Shown here one piece after another: positions 14,458-24,907 of a stretch of 64,000 nt of DNA. Each line of letters begins with the position of its first letter. Position 1 is the first letter of the stretch. Location: assembly GCA_026014745.1 (NCBI GenBank), contig JAOZHS010000001.1, positions 124,001-188,000 of the forward strand, in the 5' to 3' direction. Below the pieces are notes generated by a model, which was given only the letters and a program-made list of their open reading frames with translations, was not told where the DNA came from and ran no database searches. The translations under genes were made by a program, and so were the position numbers. This DNA is from Candidatus Bathyarchaeota archaeon. Lineage in GTDB: Archaea > Thermoproteota > Bathyarchaeia > Bathyarchaeales > Bathycorpusculaceae.

Positions 14458-16885
14458 CCACTTCATATGCATCCATGGTCACTTCTATCAGCCTCCCCGA
14501 GAAAATCCTTGGCTTGAAAAAGTTGATTTCCAAGAATCCGCCCAGCCCTACCATGACTGGAATCAACGTGTAACCGCGGAATGCTACGCCCCCAACGCTG
14601 TATCACGCGTCATGGATGCCGATTGGCGCATAATCGGTTTAATCAACAATTACACCCGCATCAGCTTCAACTTTGGCCCAACCCTGATGTATTGGTTAGC
14701 TAAGCATAAACCCCAAGTCTACCAAGCCATCCTCAACGCGGACCAAGAAAGCATGAACAATTTTGATGGTCACGGCTCAGCCATTGCACAGGTCTATAAT
14801 CATATGATAATGCCGCTTGCTAACCGACGCGACAAAGAAACCCAGGTAAAATGGGCTATACGAGATTTCCAAGTCCGCTTCAACCGCCCCCCGGAGGGTA
14901 TGTGGCTACCTGAAACAGCTGTCGACCTTGAAACCCTTGAGGTACTCGCAGAAAACAACATAAAATTCACTATTCTTGGGCCACAGCAAGCCGCAAAAGC
15001 TCAACGAATAGGTGCAACTGAATGGACTGATGTTTCCGACGGAAAAATTGATCCGCGCCGTTGCTATCTTTGTCGTTTACCCTCTGGAAAAACGATTAGT
15101 TTGTTCTTTTTTGATAAGCGCACCGCCAGCGACATCGCCTTTGGGAATTTGCTGGAGAACGGAGAAGCCTTCGCTAATCGTTTAATTGATGCTTTCCAAG
15201 ACAACGAAGATGACCCCCTAATCGAGAGTGTAGCCAGCGACGGCGAACTCTACGGTCACCATCACCCCCACGGCGACATGACCCTGGCCTACTGCATCTA
15301 CTACATCGTGTCCACCGACGCGGCGAAACTCACAAACTATGGTGAGTTCCTCGAAAAATATCCTCCAACCTTTGAAGTCCAAATTCAAGAAAACACCTCT
15401 TGGAGTTGCATCCATGGCGTGGAACGTTGGCGAAGCGACTGCGGAGATAACATGGGCAAAATCGGTTGGCATCAGGCATGGCGTAAACCTTTGCGTGCCG
15501 CTATGGATTGGCTACGCGATACTTTAGCTCCTCAATTTGAAGCGGAAGCCCAGCAGTACTTCAACGACCCCTGGGGTGCCCGAAACAACTACATCGACGT
15601 CCTATTAGACCGCTCAAAAGAAAACATTGAAGCCTTCCTAGGAAAGTATGCCAAAAAACCCTTAACTGATCCTGAAAAACGGCGTGTCATAAAACTCTTG
15701 GAGATGCAGCGTCATGCCATGCTTATGTATACGAGTTGCGGCTGGTTCTTTGACGAAATTTCTGGTATAGAAACCGTGCAGGTGATGATGTATGCGGCGC
15801 GGGCTATGCAGCTAGCCAAAGAACTATTCAATTTAGACCTTGAAAGTCAATACAAAACCTTCTTAGCCCAAGCCCCAAGTAACATCGCTGAGTTCGAGAA
15901 CGGAGCAAAAATCTACTCCATATTCATCGAACCCGCAATCGTGGACTTCGCAAAAATAAGCGCCCAAAACACAATTATGGACCTGTTTGAAGACAACATA
16001 GCGTCCGATGCATTAAACACCCATAAACCTAACAACTGTTTTCACATAGCTACAAGCGCCATTGAGAAACGCGATGACGGCAAATTCCGTTTCATAATCA
16101 ATCGCTCAACAATTTCTTCGGACATAACTTTGGACGAGGAAAGTTTTGGTTGCGCCGCAATTTGGTTAGGAGACCACAACGTAAGTTGCGGAGCTAAACG
16201 GGACATGCCGGATAGAGCCTTCAAGGCTTTACGCAGAAGGGCGCTGGCGTGTTTTGAGCGGGGACAAATAAACGAGATAATTGTTCTTTTGTCCAAGTAT
16301 TTTGGCGAGAACACTTACTCGCTAAAGGATCTGTTTCGAGATGACCAACGCTATATCCTTGATTTTATTCTTAGCGACGGGTTGAAGAAAGCCAAAGACC
16401 TCTATGACATCATCTACCGAGACAACTCTGCGTTGCTTCGATTCATGAAACAAACCCGAATTCCCTCACCAAAACCGCTCCTAGCCGCAGCCGAAACCGT
16501 TCTAAACATGGAGATAGAGCAAGCATTTTTAGAGCAGACACCTGATTTAGAAAAACTCCAAAAACTAATCGCGGATTCTAAGCAGCTCTCGGTTACGCTT
16601 GACAAAGAAACGTTGGGCTTTCGGGCTAGCCAAAAAATTGCTGAAGAACTCAGCAAATTCCAAGCGAACCCTCAAAACTTTGAAGCCCTTCAATCCATCA
16701 CTGCCCTTATCAAAATGGCTTTAGAGCTTCCCATGCAACTTGACCTTTGGCAATCTCAAAATGTAGCCTTCAAAATCGCCCAGAATCACTACAGAAAACT
16801 CAAAGAACAGCCAGACGCCGACTCTCAAGCTTGGGTCACCGCGTTTTCAGAGTTGTGCAACTTGATTGGGATACGGTTAGCATGA
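14450..16885 (+). CDS. GH57-family glycosidase with DUF3536 region
   Basis: Retaining glycosidase of family GH57, acting on alpha-glucans. HGHFYQPPRENPW near residues 9-21 and GMWLPETAVDLETLEVLAE near 150-168 mark the GH57 barrel. A SDGELYGHHHPHGD segment near 262-275 follows. The long C-terminal half corresponds to DUF3536. The 811-residue protein starts at TTG inside treZ and ends in an ATGA overlap with treY. In Sulfolobus trehalose clusters the debranching enzyme TreX sits between treZ and treY, so a glucan-trimming or debranching role is inferred for this protein. Confidence 0.85.
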   Translation: MADHFICIHGHFYQPPRENPWLEKVDFQESAQPYHDWNQRVTAECYAPNAVSRVMDADWRIIGLINNYTRISFNFGPTLMYWLAKHKPQVYQAILNADQESMNNFDGHGSAIAQVYNHMIMPLANRRDKETQVKWAIRDFQVRFNRPPEGMWLPETAVDLETLEVLAENNIKFTILGPQQAAKAQRIGATEWTDVSDGKIDPRRCYLCRLPSGKTISLFFFDKRTASDIAFGNLLENGEAFANRLIDAFQDNEDDPLIESVASDGELYGHHHPHGDMTLAYCIYYIVSTDAAKLTNYGEFLEKYPPTFEVQIQENTSWSCIHGVERWRSDCGDNMGKIGWHQAWRKPLRAAMDWLRDTLAPQFEAEAQQYFNDPWGARNNYIDVLLDRSKENIEAFLGKYAKKPLTDPEKRRVIKLLEMQRHAMLMYTSCGWFFDEISGIETVQVMMYAARAMQLAKELFNLDLESQYKTFLAQAPSNIAEFENGAKIYSIFIEPAIVDFAKISAQNTIMDLFEDNIASDALNTHKPNNCFHIATSAIEKRDDGKFRFIINRSTISSDITLDEESFGCAAIWLGDHNVSCGAKRDMPDRAFKALRRRALACFERGQINEIIVLLSKYFGENTYSLKDLFRDDQRYILDFILSDGLKKAKDLYDIIYRDNSALLRFMKQTRIPSPKPLLAAAETVLNMEIEQAFLEQTPDLEKLQKLIADSKQLSVTLDKETLGFRASQKIAEELSKFQANPQNFEALQSITALIKMALELPMQLDLWQSQNVAFKIAQNHYRKLKEQPDADSQAWVTAFSELCNLIGIRLA

Positions 16886-19440
16886 CATCCAAGATACCTA
16901 CGGCAACCTACCGCATCCAACTAAACGCCCAATTCACGTTTGCAGACCTCCAAGCAATCCTGCCCTACCTACGCGACCTCGGAGTATCCCACATTTATGC
17001 ATCCCCAATTTTCCAAGCCAAATCTGCAAGCAGCCACGGTTACGACGTCGTTGACCCAAGCACAATCAATCCTGAGTTGGGCGGAAAGGCAGCCTTTGAG
17101 CGCCTTTTGCGGGAGGTAGGGGCTTGTGGTTTAGGCTGGCTCCAAGACATCGTCCCCAATCATGCTTCGTATTCGCTGGAGAATCCATGGGTGTATGACG
17201 TGTTGGAGAAGGGTGTTGAGTCGCGTTTTAGCGGATATTTTGATGTAGACTGGGCTTATTCAGCTAAGCAGTTGCGGGGGAAAATTCTTGCACCCTTCCT
17301 AGCCGAGTCCTACATCAAGTCCCTCAAAGAAGGCAAATTATCCCTAATCCATAATGGCAGCTTCAAAGTCAAATACGACAACACAGAATTTCCCCTCAAC
17401 GCCAAAACCCAACAACACCTAAACAGCGCTCCCATCCCTCAAACCCTCACCCAATATAACAAAAACCCCAAACTCCTACATCAACTTCTCCAAAACCAAA
17501 ACTACCTCCTCACTCACTGGAAAACCGCGTTTTGGCACCTCAATTATCGCCGTTTCTTTGACATAATAGACCTTATTGGCATGCACATGGAAAACCCCTT
17601 CGCCTTCGAAGATACTCACCGCCTCATATTCGAGTTGACCAAAGGCGGGTGCGTTTCGGGGTTACGCGTAGATCATATTGACGGATTATATGAGCCCACA
17701 GAGTATTTGCAGAAGCTTCGGCTGCGTTTGCCCGAGACATATTTAGTTGTAGAAAAAATCTTGACTGGTAATGAGCAGTTGCCTGCCTCTTGGTCAGTTG
17801 AGGGCACCACTGGCTATGACTTCCTCAACTACGTCAACGCGGTGTTTGTTCAAACCAAAGGAGAGCAGGAAATTGATGCGTTTTATAGACAATTCACTGG
17901 AAACCTGCAAACCTTCCACGACACGGTGTACGCTTGTAAGAAAGCAGCTATTGCTGGCTCTTTTTTGGGTGACGTAGCAAATCTTGCTCGACTGTTTAGT
18001 CAGACCCTGTGCAGCCTTGGCATTGAGGAAGTCTTCAGTCGCGATGTGTTGAGGGCAGCAGTTGTGGAGTTGCTGGCTTGCTTTCCCATCTACCGAACAT
18101 ATTTAGACAAACAAAACCCCGACGCAGCGGCTTTAATTGAAGCTTTGGACCGTGCAAAACAAAAAGACCCTCAACTATCTGCTGAGTTTGCGGCTTTTGT
18201 GTGGTTGCTCCAAAAATGTTCCACCTCCCCTGCCGCTTTGCATGCTCTAATGAGGCTTCAACAGTACACGGGTGCTGTGATGGCCAAGGGCTTTGAGGAC
18301 ACCGCCCTATACCGCTACTGTCGGTTGCTGTCTCTAAATGAGGTCGGCGGCGACCCTTCAAAATTCGGTATCTCACTAGAGACTTTTCACGCTTTTATCA
18401 GTCAGCGGCAACAGCATTGGCCCCACACACTAAACGCCTCAAGCACCCATGACACCAAACGCGGCGAAGACCTCCGAGCACGCCTAAATGTTCTTAGCGA
18501 GATACCTGACGAATTCAAAACTAACGCCGAGAAATGGGCGGGATTGGCGGTTCCCCTTAAACAGGTAGTTAGCGACGAAGTTCCGCCTGATCGAAACGTG
18601 GAATATTTCCTTTATCAGACACTGTTGGGAGCTTACCCTTGGAATCCAATTGACCAAGTCGAGTTTCAAAACCGTCTCACACAGTATCTGGTCAAGGCGT
18701 TGCGGGAAGCCAAACGTCACAGCAACTGGATAGCCCCCAACCTACCCTACGAAGCCGCCACCACTGCCTATGTAACCCAATTGCTAAACAACACCGCTTT
18801 CCTTGACGCCTTTCACGCCTTCCAGCGAAAAGTCGCCTTCTACGGCGTCTTTAATAGCCTCAGCCAAACCCTCCTCAAAATCGCCTGCCCAGGCGTCCCC
18901 GACTTCTACCAAGGCACCGAACTCTGGGACCTCAACCTCGTCGACCCCGACAACCGCCGACCAATCAACTACCCCACAAGACAAACCCTTCTTAGAGAAA
19001 TCAATCAACTCGAACCCCACAAATCACCCAAACTGCTCGACAAACCCGACACTGGAAAGGTCAAATTTTACGTGATTTATCGGGCGCTTGAGTTGAGACA
19101 AAAACTGAAGAGCCTCTTTGAGGAGGGTGACTATATTCCTCTGCGCGTTCGGGGGTTCTGCGCTGCAAACGTAGTGGCTTTCTGCCGACATAGAGGCGAC
19201 TGCTATGTTGTAGTGTTAGCATCAAGGTTTCTCACAGAATTGTTGGCTGCGGATGCTGCTTGGCGCGAAGAGGTTGACTGGGTAGACACCTACGTTTCGT
19301 TGCCCGATGGTGCCCCCACAAGATGGACCGATGCTTTAACTGCCCAAATAGTGCCTTCTCAATGTGGTCGTTTGCCTCTCCGCGAAGTTTTAGGCGAGTT
19401 ACCAGTGGCTATGCTTTTTGGAAGTGACTCCAATGGGTAA
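16882..19440 (+). CDS. treY: Malto-oligosyltrehalose synthase
   Basis: GH13 enzyme that turns the reducing end of maltodextrins into a trehalose unit by intramolecular transglycosylation. The frame is open from 16747, but the true start is ATG 16882 in an ATGA overlap with the GH57 stop, giving 852 residues and the standard N-terminus (PTATYRIQLNAQFTFADL). Catalytic regions are GLRVDHIDGL (Asp near 263), VVEKIL (Glu near 291) and SSTHDTKRGED near 520. The C-terminal PGVPDFYQGTELWDLNLVDPDNRR is diagnostic of TreY. Confidence 0.93.
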   Translation: MTSKIPTATYRIQLNAQFTFADLQAILPYLRDLGVSHIYASPIFQAKSASSHGYDVVDPSTINPELGGKAAFERLLREVGACGLGWLQDIVPNHASYSLENPWVYDVLEKGVESRFSGYFDVDWAYSAKQLRGKILAPFLAESYIKSLKEGKLSLIHNGSFKVKYDNTEFPLNAKTQQHLNSAPIPQTLTQYNKNPKLLHQLLQNQNYLLTHWKTAFWHLNYRRFFDIIDLIGMHMENPFAFEDTHRLIFELTKGGCVSGLRVDHIDGLYEPTEYLQKLRLRLPETYLVVEKILTGNEQLPASWSVEGTTGYDFLNYVNAVFVQTKGEQEIDAFYRQFTGNLQTFHDTVYACKKAAIAGSFLGDVANLARLFSQTLCSLGIEEVFSRDVLRAAVVELLACFPIYRTYLDKQNPDAAALIEALDRAKQKDPQLSAEFAAFVWLLQKCSTSPAALHALMRLQQYTGAVMAKGFEDTALYRYCRLLSLNEVGGDPSKFGISLETFHAFISQRQQHWPHTLNASSTHDTKRGEDLRARLNVLSEIPDEFKTNAEKWAGLAVPLKQVVSDEVPPDRNVEYFLYQTLLGAYPWNPIDQVEFQNRLTQYLVKALREAKRHSNWIAPNLPYEAATTAYVTQLLNNTAFLDAFHAFQRKVAFYGVFNSLSQTLLKIACPGVPDFYQGTELWDLNLVDPDNRRPINYPTRQTLLREINQLEPHKSPKLLDKPDTGKVKFYVIYRALELRQKLKSLFEEGDYIPLRVRGFCAANVVAFCRHRGDCYVVVLASRFLTELLAADAAWREEVDWVDTYVSLPDGAPTRWTDALTAQIVPSQCGRLPLREVLGELPVAMLFGSDSNG

Positions 19441-20935
19441 GCGAGCTAGTGGTATACTGTTGCATGTGACTTCTTTGCCCTCGGAGTTTGGCATCGGCGA
19501 CTTAGGCCCACAAAGTTACCGTTTCGCCGATTTATTAGCTGCTCAAAAGCAGCACTACTGGAGTATCCTGCCCCTAAACCCCACTCGGCTAGCCGACGGT
19601 AACTCACCCTACCTAATCAGCTCCGCCTTCGCTGGTAACCCCCTGCTAATTAGCCCACAAAAACTTTTTGAGGCTGGTTTGCTCCCTAAAAAAACGACAC
19701 CCACAACTACGTCGCCAAACAAGGTGGACTATGCGGTTGTCTATAAGCAAAAAGAAGTCCTCCTAGAGCAAGCCCACGTAATCTTCCAAAAAACTAAAAC
19801 TCAACCCCCCGATGCACCCTTCGACTTTGGGGGGTTCTGCGCCGAAAATGCAGCGTGGCTTGATGACTATGCACTTTATGTTACATTGAGACGGAAGATG
19901 CATGTGCCTTGGTACCTCTGGCCCAGCAGCCTCCGTAAACGTGTTCCAGCAGCGATGAATCGAGCCCAGATAGCCTTTAGAAATGAGATTGCGAAGGAAA
20001 AGTTTGTGCAGTACCTCTTTTTCAGCCAGATATGCAGCCTCAAAGCATACTGCAATAAACGCCAAATCCACATCTTAGGCGACTTACCCTTCTATGTGGC
20101 TCATGACAGCGCCGACGTCTGGGCAAACCCAACGCTCTTCAAACTCTACAGCAACGGTAAACCACGATACGTTGGCGGCGTTCCCCCTGACTATTTTAGC
20201 GCCACTGGGCAACTCTGGGGCAACCCTGTCTATGACTGGAAAAACATGGAAGCCACAGATTTTGAATGGTGGCTGAGCCGCATACGCCACAACCTAACCC
20301 TTTGTGACCTGTTGCGTTTGGACCATTTCCGCGGATTTGTGGCTTACTGGCAGGTTTCTGGACACCAAAAAACCGCCCTCAAGGGACACTGGGTAAAGGC
20401 GCCTTCACAAGCGTTTTTTACCGCCCTAAAAAAAGCATTTGTAACTATGCCGTTTATAGCTGAAGACTTAGGCTACATCGACGCACCAGTCCGCGCCGCC
20501 ATCAAACGCTGGCGCCTACCTGGCATGAAGGTGCTGCTTTTTGGCTTTGACGGCGACCCAAAAAATCCGCACCTGCCCAAAAATCACCCCCAAAACGCAG
20601 TTGTCTACACGGGAACCCATGACACTAACACTGCTCAGGGTTGGTATAGTGCTGAGGCATCAGTCAAAGAAAAAAACAACCTGACCAAAATCTTAGGCAA
20701 ACCTCCCACTGCTCGAAACGTCAGCTTTGAGCTGGTGAAGTTGGCGTTGACATCTAAAGCCGATTTATGTATCCTTCCTTTGCAGGATGTGCTTGGTTTA
20801 GGTTCGGATGCCCGCATGAACCATCCCAGCCAACCTTGTCATAACTGGGAATGGCGCGTAACAGCCGCGCAGTTGAAGAGTCCTCGGATAGCCGAATTAG
20901 GTGGTCTTATTGTTGAGTCTGGTCGGGCAGGGTAA
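19433..20935 (+). CDS. malQ: 4-alpha-glucanotransferase (amylomaltase, GH77)
   Basis: Transfers glucan segments between maltodextrins and releases glucose, which supplies longer chains for TreY and glucose for TreT. RASGILLHVTSLPS at the N-terminus, LRLDHFRGF near residue 296, FIAEDLG near 343 and THDTNTAQGW near 396 are GH77 signatures. ATG 19433 is preferred over the upstream TTG 19418 because GGAAGTGA lies five bases before it. The gene overlaps treY by eight bases and ends the operon. The 500-residue length is typical. Confidence 0.93.
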   Translation: MGKRASGILLHVTSLPSEFGIGDLGPQSYRFADLLAAQKQHYWSILPLNPTRLADGNSPYLISSAFAGNPLLISPQKLFEAGLLPKKTTPTTTSPNKVDYAVVYKQKEVLLEQAHVIFQKTKTQPPDAPFDFGGFCAENAAWLDDYALYVTLRRKMHVPWYLWPSSLRKRVPAAMNRAQIAFRNEIAKEKFVQYLFFSQICSLKAYCNKRQIHILGDLPFYVAHDSADVWANPTLFKLYSNGKPRYVGGVPPDYFSATGQLWGNPVYDWKNMEATDFEWWLSRIRHNLTLCDLLRLDHFRGFVAYWQVSGHQKTALKGHWVKAPSQAFFTALKKAFVTMPFIAEDLGYIDAPVRAAIKRWRLPGMKVLLFGFDGDPKNPHLPKNHPQNAVVYTGTHDTNTAQGWYSAEASVKEKNNLTKILGKPPTARNVSFELVKLALTSKADLCILPLQDVLGLGSDARMNHPSQPCHNWEWRVTAAQLKSPRIAELGGLIVESGRAG

Positions 20936-20951: not shown

Positions 20952-21527
20952 CTATCTGTACGTGGCTTGGGCTGCTCTTAGGCACTTCTCGAATCCGTCC
21001 AAAAAAGTAAAAAGCTGCCCCTCAGGCGCCTCTTCAACAACCAACTGCTCTGTGCTTACATGGATGCAGCCGTCCAGCATCAAATTGTCCACGCAGTCCA
21101 CTTCTTCGATGAACATGCCGTTACTGTCACGTAGTTTACAGTCCTCGACTCGGCTAACTTTGCCTTTGAGCGCTTTTATTGTGCGCTCCGTAAACGGCAC
21201 GGCGGTGTTGGTGTAGGCGAACACTTTTTTGCCCAACCCATGCGCAAAGCCCATCTCAAAAGCTGTTCCCACATCAGCGCTTGGACCCCGAAACGGCGTA
21301 ACATTAGCAACTAAAAATTCGCAGGTTTTGATAAGTTCCTCGTTTATGCTGCTGATGCATAAACCGATTTCGCGTTGCGATTTGCCTTCGACGGCGACTT
21401 CTGTATCGAGGGGGAATACGCCTTCGAATCCGTATTTTCTGCAGAGTGCTTTTTTGCGTTCGCCGACTTCTTTGGCTTCTTTGAGGAAAACTTCGGGACC
21501 TGCAAGATACACGCGTTTGGGTGTCAT
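20952..21527 (-). CDS. Nucleoside 2-deoxyribosyltransferase family protein
   Basis: Member of the family that exchanges or hydrolyses the base of deoxyribonucleosides (PF05014), probably in nucleotide salvage or clean-up. VYLAGPEVF at residues 6-14 forms the nucleotide loop. VANVTPFRGPSADVGTAFEMGFAHGLGKKVFAY near 74-106 carries the catalytic Glu of the GTAxExG-type motif. The 191-residue length is usual. It is convergent with malQ, 16 bases away. The exact substrate cannot be told. Confidence 0.85.
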   Translation of the reverse strand: MTPKRVYLAGPEVFLKEAKEVGERKKALCRKYGFEGVFPLDTEVAVEGKSQREIGLCISSINEELIKTCEFLVANVTPFRGPSADVGTAFEMGFAHGLGKKVFAYTNTAVPFTERTIKALKGKVSRVEDCKLRDSNGMFIEEVDCVDNLMLDGCIHVSTEQLVVEEAPEGQLFTFLDGFEKCLRAAQATYR

Positions 21528-21578: not shown

Positions 21579-22865
21579 TTAGGCTGTTTTGTATCTTAAC
21601 AGCGCGGCAAACCCGCCCAAGGCTTTAAGCTTAGCTTTCTCCTCAGAATCCGTAAATATAACCTCAACCCGCGCGTTTGTCTCTGCGGCAGCGTCTTCAA
21701 AGACCTCTACCATATCCCTCTCAACAACATCAAATTCCACTGCATGGCACCGTTCGCATGCCTTTGACTTCATTTCCTGAAGTGCGTTGGAGTCTTTTTT
21801 GTTGATTATCTGGGTTTTGGGTAGACCGCAGTTTCGACAGACAAGATTAACTTCAACGAAATCTGAGTTATCTGTTAATAGCGCCACCTCGACTTCGCCC
21901 CTCTTCAATCCTTCTAACACGGGGTCCAGTCCAAAAACAGACATACCATCCTGCTTGTTTAGCGAGGTGAGGAGGCGTTCTATAGTTTTCTTCTCTTGAG
22001 GCCCACACATGGTCATGAGTGCATCTTGGGATTTCTCGAACATCTCTCTCAGTCCCGCTTCGCAAGCGGATTGTGTGTCAATTACTTTTAGAACCGCGTT
22101 TTTGAGTTCATAGTTGAGGTAGTCGCCTTTTAGGAAATCATCTTTTGTCTGACCGGGTCCGCCGATAATAATCACGGTTGCCTTTTTGTCTTCCAGAAAC
22201 GCCTTTGTAGCATGCTCCGCGACCCGATGGAAAAAGGCTGTTAGTTCCATGTCTCGTTCGCGCTCATAGCGGCGCTGGCTCTGGCCGCCCTTGCCTGTTT
22301 TTCCCGGGATTCCCGAGGAGAGACTTTCGAGTGACTGAAGGTTTTCACTGGTTGCGAGACCGAGGCTAGCGTCTTTGGCGTCAAGCGCAATTAACCCGAT
22401 GACTCTTTGGTCTCTTAGCATGTCCCGCATGGGGTCTAAGTGGAAATGGTCATCAATGAAGAATTGGTAGCTACTGAGAGGTTGGGGTGGCGCAAGCTCC
22501 TCTATGTGTAGGGCTTCTTTGTCAGATTCGTTTTGGTAGGTTCCAGCGAAGACTGCTAATCCGTTGGAGGGGGTTTCGTTTTGTTGTTTTATGTGTTTGA
22601 GCGTGTTTTTTAGTGCGTCTTGGAGACGGTCGGCTTCTTTTTGGTTTTTTGTAGGAATGCATTCAGCTTCTCTTTTCATAGTCGCGGCTATTTGCTCAGT
22701 GGAGGCTTTTGGGGGGAGGTAGAGTGAGATGAATTCTTTTCCTCTGCCTTGTTTGTTGGAGAGGGAAGCGATGATTTTTTGGAGCTTATGCTGTTTGGCT
22801 GAGTTAGTGGTTGTGAGTTGGCAACCATAAAAACGTGTGATTTTCTCTGATCCCACAATTGGCAC
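21579..22865 (-). CDS. aRF1/eRF1-family protein without stop-codon-reading motifs
   Basis: Three-domain protein of the class I release factor family. The middle domain keeps the peptidyl-tRNA hydrolysis motif GKGGQSQRR (GGQ at residues 193-195) and IIIGGPGQTKDDFLK. The C-terminal domain has a four-Cys zinc site (CRNC and CERC). The N-terminal domain departs from canonical aRF1: where TASNIKS is expected the sequence reads CIPTKNQK (69-76), and the YxCxxxF element is YQFFIDDHF (133-141). The likely role is ribosome rescue or another non-decoding function rather than normal termination. It starts at GTG. Confidence 0.82.
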   Translation of the reverse strand: MPIVGSEKITRFYGCQLTTTNSAKQHKLQKIIASLSNKQGRGKEFISLYLPPKASTEQIAATMKREAECIPTKNQKEADRLQDALKNTLKHIKQQNETPSNGLAVFAGTYQNESDKEALHIEELAPPQPLSSYQFFIDDHFHLDPMRDMLRDQRVIGLIALDAKDASLGLATSENLQSLESLSSGIPGKTGKGGQSQRRYERERDMELTAFFHRVAEHATKAFLEDKKATVIIIGGPGQTKDDFLKGDYLNYELKNAVLKVIDTQSACEAGLREMFEKSQDALMTMCGPQEKKTIERLLTSLNKQDGMSVFGLDPVLEGLKRGEVEVALLTDNSDFVEVNLVCRNCGLPKTQIINKKDSNALQEMKSKACERCHAVEFDVVERDMVEVFEDAAAETNARVEVIFTDSEEKAKLKALGGFAALLRYKTA

Positions 22866-23032: not shown

Positions 23033-24907
23033 GTGGTTCGAATGCACAACTCCATCAAAGCTGCCGTGCTTCTGCTTAACGTTTTGCTATCACTGATGGT
23101 TTTGTCTAGTTCGGGTGTTGTTGATGGTCAGCAGGTCGATGCCTCAAGTTATTATTCGCAATTCAACGTTTTGAATCATCAATTGTATATCCAAATAACT
23201 CCTTCCCTCTACAACTACTATTGTAATTTGACCCACCGTATACCTTCTGACAGTTACTACGCTAACATGGTGACGCCCCAAGCCGTTAAACCCATAGCAG
23301 AAAACCTCCGAAACCTAACGGCTAACCTCCCAAACAATGACGAACAGTTCGCGAATGCAGTTTTAGCGTTAGTTCACCAAATTCCCTACAATATAACTGG
23401 GGCAAAGTATCCGCTTGAAACCTTGGTGACTAACACCGGGGATTGCGTAGGGCTTTCTTTGCTTGCAGCCTCCATTATGGCGGCTGGGGGGTTGGATGTA
23501 ATATTGATTCACTATGTAGGAATAGACCCTGGGCACATCAATGTGGGTGTCTGTCTTCCTTACGCCCCCCTTTATCATTCTTTTCTTTTTGCGCCTACAA
23601 GCTTTGAATATCAAAATAAAACCTACTGGACTGCAGAAGCAACTGGGAAACTAGATTGGAAAGTAGGCGACCAATCCGACGCACTCTCAGGGGCACAAGC
23701 ACTGATGATTTCTCTAAATCATCCAAATAACCAGTCAAATAGCCTCTCAGCGTGTCTAGACAAACCTCTACTTTCCTCTGAGATTACCCTAAGCATCTCG
23801 CAGCCTCCCTTGAACAATGAAAACCAAACCCGTGGCCTTCTACTTTCAGGGACAATTAACCCTCCGCAAGCCGCTCAAAACGTCACCCTATACATCTCTC
23901 GTAACGGCAAATTACTTGATTGTTTAACGAACTCCACCGATAGCTGTGGCAACTTTGAGATATTGTGGAATTTTACGTTGCTGGGCACCTACTACCTTGA
24001 GGCAAGTTGGAGTGGCGCTTCAGAATATGCTGGAGCTGACAGCGAAACCCTTGCAGTTTTGGTTGGTCCCGAGTTGCTTTTGCAGTTTCAGGCACCGCTT
24101 TATAACTATATTTTTGGGCACGGCATAGGCGCCTATGAACTTCGTCCATTTGTCGGCGTGAACGATTTTCTTAATGTTCCTTTGGGTCAAAATGTGTCTT
24201 TAAGTTGCGATTTTACCTTAATCCAAACGGGACACGGGGCTCCAAATGTTCAAACCCAAACAGTAACTGTGCCTGAAAAAGAGCAAACAGTTATGTCTCA
24301 TCATGGGCAAACAGAAACCATAACAATTCCAAAACAAACAGTCCTTGTTCCTATCAATATTCCAAAGGGTCTGCAGCCTCTATCTTTACCTGACGATTTT
24401 AACCAAACAGTTTACAACAAATTCTGTTTACTTCTGCAAAGTAACCCTGCCGATAACTACAGTTTGAGTTTTAAGGGGTTAAATGACTATGACTTGGCAG
24501 GCATACAAACCAACGAAAATGTTGTGTTAATGAACGCCACCGAGGACGTAAAAGAAAACGTGTGGTATGAGTTTTCCTTGGATATTTCTCTAAGTGGAAT
24601 AACGACGAAGATAACCTGCCCAAATGGCACTACTCTGCAAAGCAGCAACGCCGCCTACGATGAAACTGGCAACAATAGCTTGGCACTGGTGTTAGCAAAC
24701 AATGAGGACAACGCTGTAATCTTCAAAAACCTCGAAATCCAGTCTCTTGACAGCCCTCCAGAGCAACCAACCCCAACACCCACATTCAAAGACACCGACC
24801 AAGTGCGTCTATATCCTGTTGTTCTGCTTCTTTTGGCGATAATTGTCTTTTTTGCAAGTATTGTGTTGATTGCAAAAATAACAAAGTTACAAAAAGCAAA
24901 AAATTAG
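23033..24907 (+). CDS. Exported transglutaminase-like protein, membrane-anchored
   Basis: Surface protein of 624 residues. An N-terminal signal helix spans about residues 8-30 and a C-terminal membrane helix about 592-614, ending in a basic tail. Residues 100-170 look like a transglutaminase/cysteine-protease core: GDCVGLSLLAASIMAAGG supplies Cys and PGHINVGV a downstream His. Ig-like beta segments follow (SGTINPPQAAQNVTLYISRNGK). Residues 405-445 repeat the pattern QTxTxPxKxQTV twice. Many N-x-S/T sites suggest glycosylation. The start is GTG 23033 or ATG 23042. Substrate and partners are unknown. Confidence 0.65.
   Translation: MVRMHNSIKAAVLLLNVLLSLMVLSSSGVVDGQQVDASSYYSQFNVLNHQLYIQITPSLYNYYCNLTHRIPSDSYYANMVTPQAVKPIAENLRNLTANLPNNDEQFANAVLALVHQIPYNITGAKYPLETLVTNTGDCVGLSLLAASIMAAGGLDVILIHYVGIDPGHINVGVCLPYAPLYHSFLFAPTSFEYQNKTYWTAEATGKLDWKVGDQSDALSGAQALMISLNHPNNQSNSLSACLDKPLLSSEITLSISQPPLNNENQTRGLLLSGTINPPQAAQNVTLYISRNGKLLDCLTNSTDSCGNFEILWNFTLLGTYYLEASWSGASEYAGADSETLAVLVGPELLLQFQAPLYNYIFGHGIGAYELRPFVGVNDFLNVPLGQNVSLSCDFTLIQTGHGAPNVQTQTVTVPEKEQTVMSHHGQTETITIPKQTVLVPINIPKGLQPLSLPDDFNQTVYNKFCLLLQSNPADNYSLSFKGLNDYDLAGIQTNENVVLMNATEDVKENVWYEFSLDISLSGITTKITCPNGTTLQSSNAAYDETGNNSLALVLANNEDNAVIFKNLEIQSLDSPPEQPTPTPTFKDTDQVRLYPVVLLLLAIIVFFASIVLIAKITKLQKAKN

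Follow-up and report, generated by a model that had tools for sequence, protein, structure and literature searches.

The locus raises the question of what a protein of the aRF1 family does when the motifs that read stop codons are missing from it: whether it still terminates translation, or whether it has been given over to another task in the ribosomal A site. The gene lies on the minus strand of the window, which is the whole 64,000-nucleotide stretch of DNA analysed here. In a profile search, the encoded protein scored 334 bits against the aRF1 model TIGR03676 (cut-off 234.7), and all three eRF1 Pfam domains were found in it; it is a member of the aRF1 family, far beyond chance. The parts of the gene are listed below in window coordinates.

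21579..22865, minus strand: aRF1-family paralogue gene, GTG start at 22865, TAA stop, 428 aa
22806..22865, minus strand: N-terminal extension (residues 1-20), FxxCQxxTxxSxK, kept in the Bathyarchaeia copies and absent from canonical aRF1
22638..22661, minus strand: CIPTKNQK (residues 69-76) where TASNIKS is expected; unconserved and variable in length among the paralogues
22443..22469, minus strand: YQFFIDDHF (residues 133-141) at the YxCxxxF site; Cys replaced by Ile
22275..22289, minus strand: catalytic loop G193-G194-Q195-S196-Q197 (GGxSQ)
21747..21839, minus strand: zinc-site region of the C domain, Cys 343, 346, 370 and 373
21591..21617, minus strand: C-terminal GGFAALLRY (residues 417-425), counterpart of the GILRY motif

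An extra copy beside a canonical aRF1

A first-pass annotation of this DNA had reasoned that, were this the only aRF1 in the genome, stop-codon reading would call for another explanation, and it had proposed a search for a second aRF1 with TASNIKS. Such a gene, with TASNIKS, YRCDSRF and GGQ, was found at G000:C2:651768-652994 in the same genome (2.7 Mb, 3 contigs, 97.5% complete), which excludes the premise of a sole aRF1 and, with it, the altered genetic code that was considered. PylS was not found over the cut-off in any of the 14 paralogue-carrying genomes, so a link to pyrrolysine was also discarded. Pelota is encoded in the host genome as well (C3:214009-215076, 249.6 bits). The window gene is an extra copy, and its product joins canonical aRF1 and Pelota as a third protein of their superfamily in this cell. 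A 240-aa protein on the same contig as Pelota (G000:C3:182456-183037; L006:1492-2214, minus strand) gave a weak Pelota match of 37 bits, with eRF1 domain 3 just below the Pfam cut-off (24.5 vs 25.8) and the N-terminal domain not found; it is possibly a further degenerate release-factor-like protein.

A canonical aRF1 accompanies the paralogue in 13 of the 14 genomes. The exception is the gapped MAG SRBZ_4 (G059); because the Ftr gene, which adjoins aRF1 in the relatives, is missing there too, the aRF1 segment was probably left unassembled. These counts bear on the view that the protein is an ordinary aRF1 whose odd motifs still allow it to read stop codons, or else a decaying duplicate. Such a view could draw on that one MAG and on the passing of the aRF1 equivalog cut-off; with the canonical factor present in every other genome, and the exception also short of aRF1's usual neighbour, we consider it very improbable. 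Although the window protein passes the aRF1 model and carries GGQ, both TASNIKS and YxCxxxF are absent, and since these are two defining motifs it is not a canonical aRF1.

Stop-codon-reading elements and the catalytic loop

The 15 members of the paralogue family were compared column by column with 61 canonical aRF1 proteins. The NIKS region (residues 63-82) was the most eroded relative to the canonical proteins, with a mean conservation of 0.50 among the paralogues versus 0.77, and TASNIKS was absent from all 15. The Cys of YxCxxxF was likewise gone from every paralogue, most of which have V or I in its place, and erosion also extends to the GTx-loop Thr and to the Glu that precedes TASNIKS; taken together, NIKS, this Cys and the GTx Thr are gone in all or nearly all of the members. 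The FFIDDHF segment aligns onto YRCDSRF: an aromatic residue still takes the place of the Tyr, and the final Phe (F141) is invariant across the aligned set. The earlier claim that both reading motifs had been replaced therefore stands for NIKS, which is lost, and only partly for YxCxxxF. The N-domain model PF03463 gave 35-41 bits for the paralogues (nothing for one of them, L091) versus 67-84 bits for six canonical proteins. As the loss of the reading elements is common to the whole family, we favour a rescue-like role that does not depend on the codon.

The remodelled N domain could instead serve a release factor that answers to another A-site signal, such as a subset of the stop codons, a modified codon or the end of an mRNA. 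The structural model retains an N domain with the eRF1 fold, and a set of residues has become invariant in it (C15, T19, K24, H26, A33, E123, L143, P145, R147 and R151). In the alignment, the N-terminal extension and the positions just after it hold C15, T19, S22, K24 and H26, all invariant among the paralogues. The loop at the NIKS position, however, differs in length among the members and contains no residue common to all of them, so that no common codon-reading motif is visible there, and PylS, as stated above, did not pass its cut-off. We regard this alternative as improbable.

The GGQ reported by the first-pass annotation at residues 193-195 was confirmed (22281-22289, + strand numbering). 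What had been missed is that its Gln is not conserved within the protein's own family and that Gln 197 is. Residue 195 is Gln in 61/61 canonical proteins, while among the paralogues it is Gln in seven, Ser in seven and Trp in one. Residue 197 is Ala in 61/61 canonical aRF1 proteins versus Gln in 15/15 paralogues. With S196 also invariant in the 15, the family loop reads GG[Q/S/W]SQ, set against the canonical GGQSA (61/61). On the tree, Gln 195 was lost twice, once in a GGS clade (support 99/96) and once to GGW, and Gln 197 never changes. The loop and the helix that follows (residues 184-206) form the most conserved segment of the paralogues (0.92). As GGxSQ rather than GGQ is the invariant motif, the candidate catalytic Gln is shifted by two residues. 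The earlier prediction of peptide release without choice of stop codon, as in ribosome rescue, gains from the family-wide loss of the reading elements; its argument that an intact GGQ implies release was too simple, with GGS or GGW in 8/15 members.

GGxSQ is the motif reported for the VLRF-1 proteins of archaea (aVLRF-1) and actinobacteria (acVLRF-1) by Burroughs and Aravind (PMC6514570). Stop-codon-independent release by yeast Vms1 depends on its GxxQ motif, and the protein lost its function when GGSQ was shortened to GGQ (PMC5989216). A longer loop is described for the VLRF-1 proteins (PMC6514570); the paralogue loop carries no insertion relative to canonical aRF1.

Outside the loop, the middle domain and the C-terminus were the best-conserved parts of the paralogues in the same comparison. 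The C-terminal GGFAALLRY corresponds to a motif implicated in GTPase binding (PMC2613156), and the zinc site was intact in the window protein, as had been noted before, with all four cysteines in place. The paralogue of AM-2014_bin-0583 (L089:3724-4836, the same gene as L048/L153; 370 aa, frame open) does not contain the zinc-ribbon segment, which shows that not every family member has the zinc site. Genes resembling dnaK, grpE and dnaJ, as read by eye, lie just downstream of it.

Known families, origin and neighbourhood

Canonical aRF1 (TIGR03676) and the paralogue share a three-domain fold, a full-length alignment at 28-41% identity, GGPGxTK, the zinc cysteines and the C-terminal GG(F/I)AA(L/I)LRY, and the window copy shares GGQ as well. 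The paralogue differs in its missing TASNIKS and YxCxxxF Cys, its changed GTx loop, its GGxSQ in place of GGQSA, its N-terminal extension and the dispensability of Gln 195 in its family. An AlphaFold model of the window protein predicted the aRF1 fold (mean pLDDT 82, pTM 0.62), with an uncertain placement of the domains and a full-chain TM of 0.58. The best PDB match of the model was the archaeal aRF1 4af1 (E 1.9e-35), followed by eRF1s, and the Balon and Pelota structures matched at weaker E-values.

The VLRF-1 clade (aVLRF-1, acVLRF-1 and Vms1/ANKZF1), compared by its published motif, resembles the paralogue in the GGxSQ loop and in the predicted stop-codon-independent release. In contrast, the paralogue keeps its N, middle and C domains, where aVLRF-1 has no C-terminal Pelota domain and acVLRF-1 no N domain, and it has no loop insertion. 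The window protein scored 34.1 bits against acVLRF1_NCBI (NF041024; cut-off 125), no better than canonical aRF1, and its Pfam acVLRF1 match of 49.8 was rejected as non-specific, most canonical aRF1s scoring 40-43. As both the profile and the domain architecture failed, and as the paralogues are nested among aRF1s of the Nitrososphaeria side, the VLRF-1-type motif looks convergent.

Another possibility is that the paralogue is an A-site factor that does not hydrolyse, either hibernating on idle or stalled ribosomes, as Balon does, or splitting them without peptide release in the manner of Pelota. Balon, which belongs to the aeRF1 family and has neither NIKS nor GGQ, parks ribosomes (PMC10901736). 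Potential archaeal Balons occur in genomes that also have aeRF1 and were reported in Methanosarcinia, Syntropharchaeia and Thermoplasmatota, not in Bathyarchaeia (PMC13324472). Like the Balon family (the Rv2629/Msmeg1130 hibernation factors and the potential archaeal Balons), the paralogue has an aeRF1-type fold, lacks NIKS and coexists with the main factor. The loss of the GGQ Gln in 8/15 members, the well-conserved middle domain and C-terminus and a patchy presence in peat and permafrost MAGs, which fits a stress role, agree with this possibility, as do some neighbours of DnaK/GrpE, ClpB or two-component type (by eye; not conserved). Against it, the seven remaining members, the window protein included, retain an intact GGQ, and the Gln 197 gained in 15/15 would be needless for a pure plug. 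The zinc-site cysteines, present in 14/15, also set the paralogues apart from the Balon family. The Balon hibernation-factor model NF052289 gave 30.7 bits for the window protein and 28-35 for its relatives, far under the cut-off of 320. Archaeal Pelota/Dom34 (TIGR00111) shares the superfamily, the middle and C domains and a likely A-site binding without a stop codon; the paralogue, however, has an N domain of the eRF1 type, scored 56 bits against a cut-off of 177.65, and would find the Pelota role already taken by the genuine gene elsewhere in the genome. We judge a non-hydrolysing factor to be less likely than a hydrolysing one, though it is the main rival.

The family consists of 15 copies; 13 come from one Bathyarchaeia family, spread over 12 genomes, and two from other archaea. 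The twelve other Bathyarchaeia copies are ~49-59% identical to the window protein, and the two further ones, from YF1.bin6 and Maxine3, were found at 45-47% in a scan of 84,980 species. No paralogue was detected elsewhere among 257 Bathyarchaeia genomes, where scores fall from 383 to 287 bits, the level at which canonical aRF1s begin. The samples of the relatives include palsa, bog and Chersky, among others. One MAG (G048, palsa_989; 6% contamination) holds two different GGS-type copies (L083 and L085), which points either to a further duplication or to mixing of genomes in the bin. No paper describing this family was found in the open-access library searched, which does not extend to subscription journals. 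We class the 15 copies as a new aRF1-derived paralogue family, additional to the aRF1, Pelota, VLRF-1 and potential Balons (the last in some cases only) already known from archaea.

An IQ-TREE tree of 76 proteins placed the 15 paralogues in a single clade (100/100), sister (98/95) to the canonical aRF1s of isolate 13_2, G549 and YF1.bin6, on the Nitrososphaeria side. An origin from the Bathyarchaeia aRF1 was rejected by a constrained grouping (p-AU 0.0043), and a viral origin was set aside, no relative having been found in viral contigs with exact-peptide seeds of limited sensitivity. In the simplest history, which we infer from the tree, the gene was probably born by duplication of aRF1 in a lineage of the Nitrososphaeria side and then transferred to Bathyarchaeia. 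The family is under purifying selection: dN/dS was about 0.2-0.26 for the least saturated pairs, and ~0.26 for the closest (dN 0.148, dS 0.572). Together with 100/100 monophyly across genera, these low ratios argue against the decaying duplicate mentioned above.

The gene neighbourhood was also inspected. A conserved operon was rejected, as neighbours are common to close relatives only and no gene of translation keeps a linkage to the paralogue throughout the family. Immediately downstream of the window gene, and also on the minus strand, lies a nucleoside 2-deoxyribosyltransferase (window 20952-21527, minus strand; PF05014, 108 bits), a pairing not seen at other paralogue loci. Beyond it, on the plus strand (window 16747-20935), an alpha-amylase-family gene (897 aa) and a 4-alpha-glucanotransferase (PF02446, 541 bits) probably form a glycogen or trehalose cluster. 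The plus-strand gene at 23033-24907 encodes a 624-aa protein that, judged by eye, resembles transglutaminases and has a membrane segment at its C-terminus; it had no Pfam match at E 0.001, and a homologue also adjoins the paralogue in L087 (3736-5514).

A putative rescue factor and its meaning

The presence of canonical aRF1 and Pelota in the same genome suggests that the paralogue was freed from termination and from standard no-go rescue, and the invariant Gln gained in its catalytic loop tilts the prediction towards hydrolysis. We propose, with slightly less than even confidence, that the protein is an A-site factor which has lost the reading of stop codons and hydrolyses peptidyl-tRNA through Gln 197. 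Its delivery to the A site would probably fall to aEF1A, by way of the C-terminal motif that it has kept, and it would bind there without reading a stop codon. Gln 197, in a VLRF-1-like GGxSQ geometry, would then hydrolyse the peptidyl-tRNA of stalled ribosomes or of large subunits, and the protein would work in rescue much as the release factors Vms1 and VLRF-1 do. Several points speak against this hydrolase: without a loop insertion Gln 197 may fall short of the catalytic centre, the GGS and GGW members could be dead hydrolases, the window protein is not a VLRF-1 by profile, and no conserved neighbour at the paralogue loci points to quality control.

For annotation, the family matters in a direct way. 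TIGR03676 passes all four paralogues tested (313-358 bits vs 234.7), the GGS and GGW forms included, so automatic annotation will name the paralogues aRF1, and a bin that had lost its true aRF1 would wrongly seem to have one. The occurrence of GGQSQ, GGSSQ and GGWSQ in one family offers a natural test of which Gln performs aRF1-type chemistry. A broader idea, which we hold with more doubt than confidence, is that aRF1-derived rescue factors moved the catalytic Gln by two residues (GGQSA to GGxSQ) and converged on the VLRF-1/Vms1 loop with all three domains kept. If this were true, the members with both Gln residues and those with the new one only would be intermediate steps on the path from a termination factor to a codon-independent rescue enzyme.
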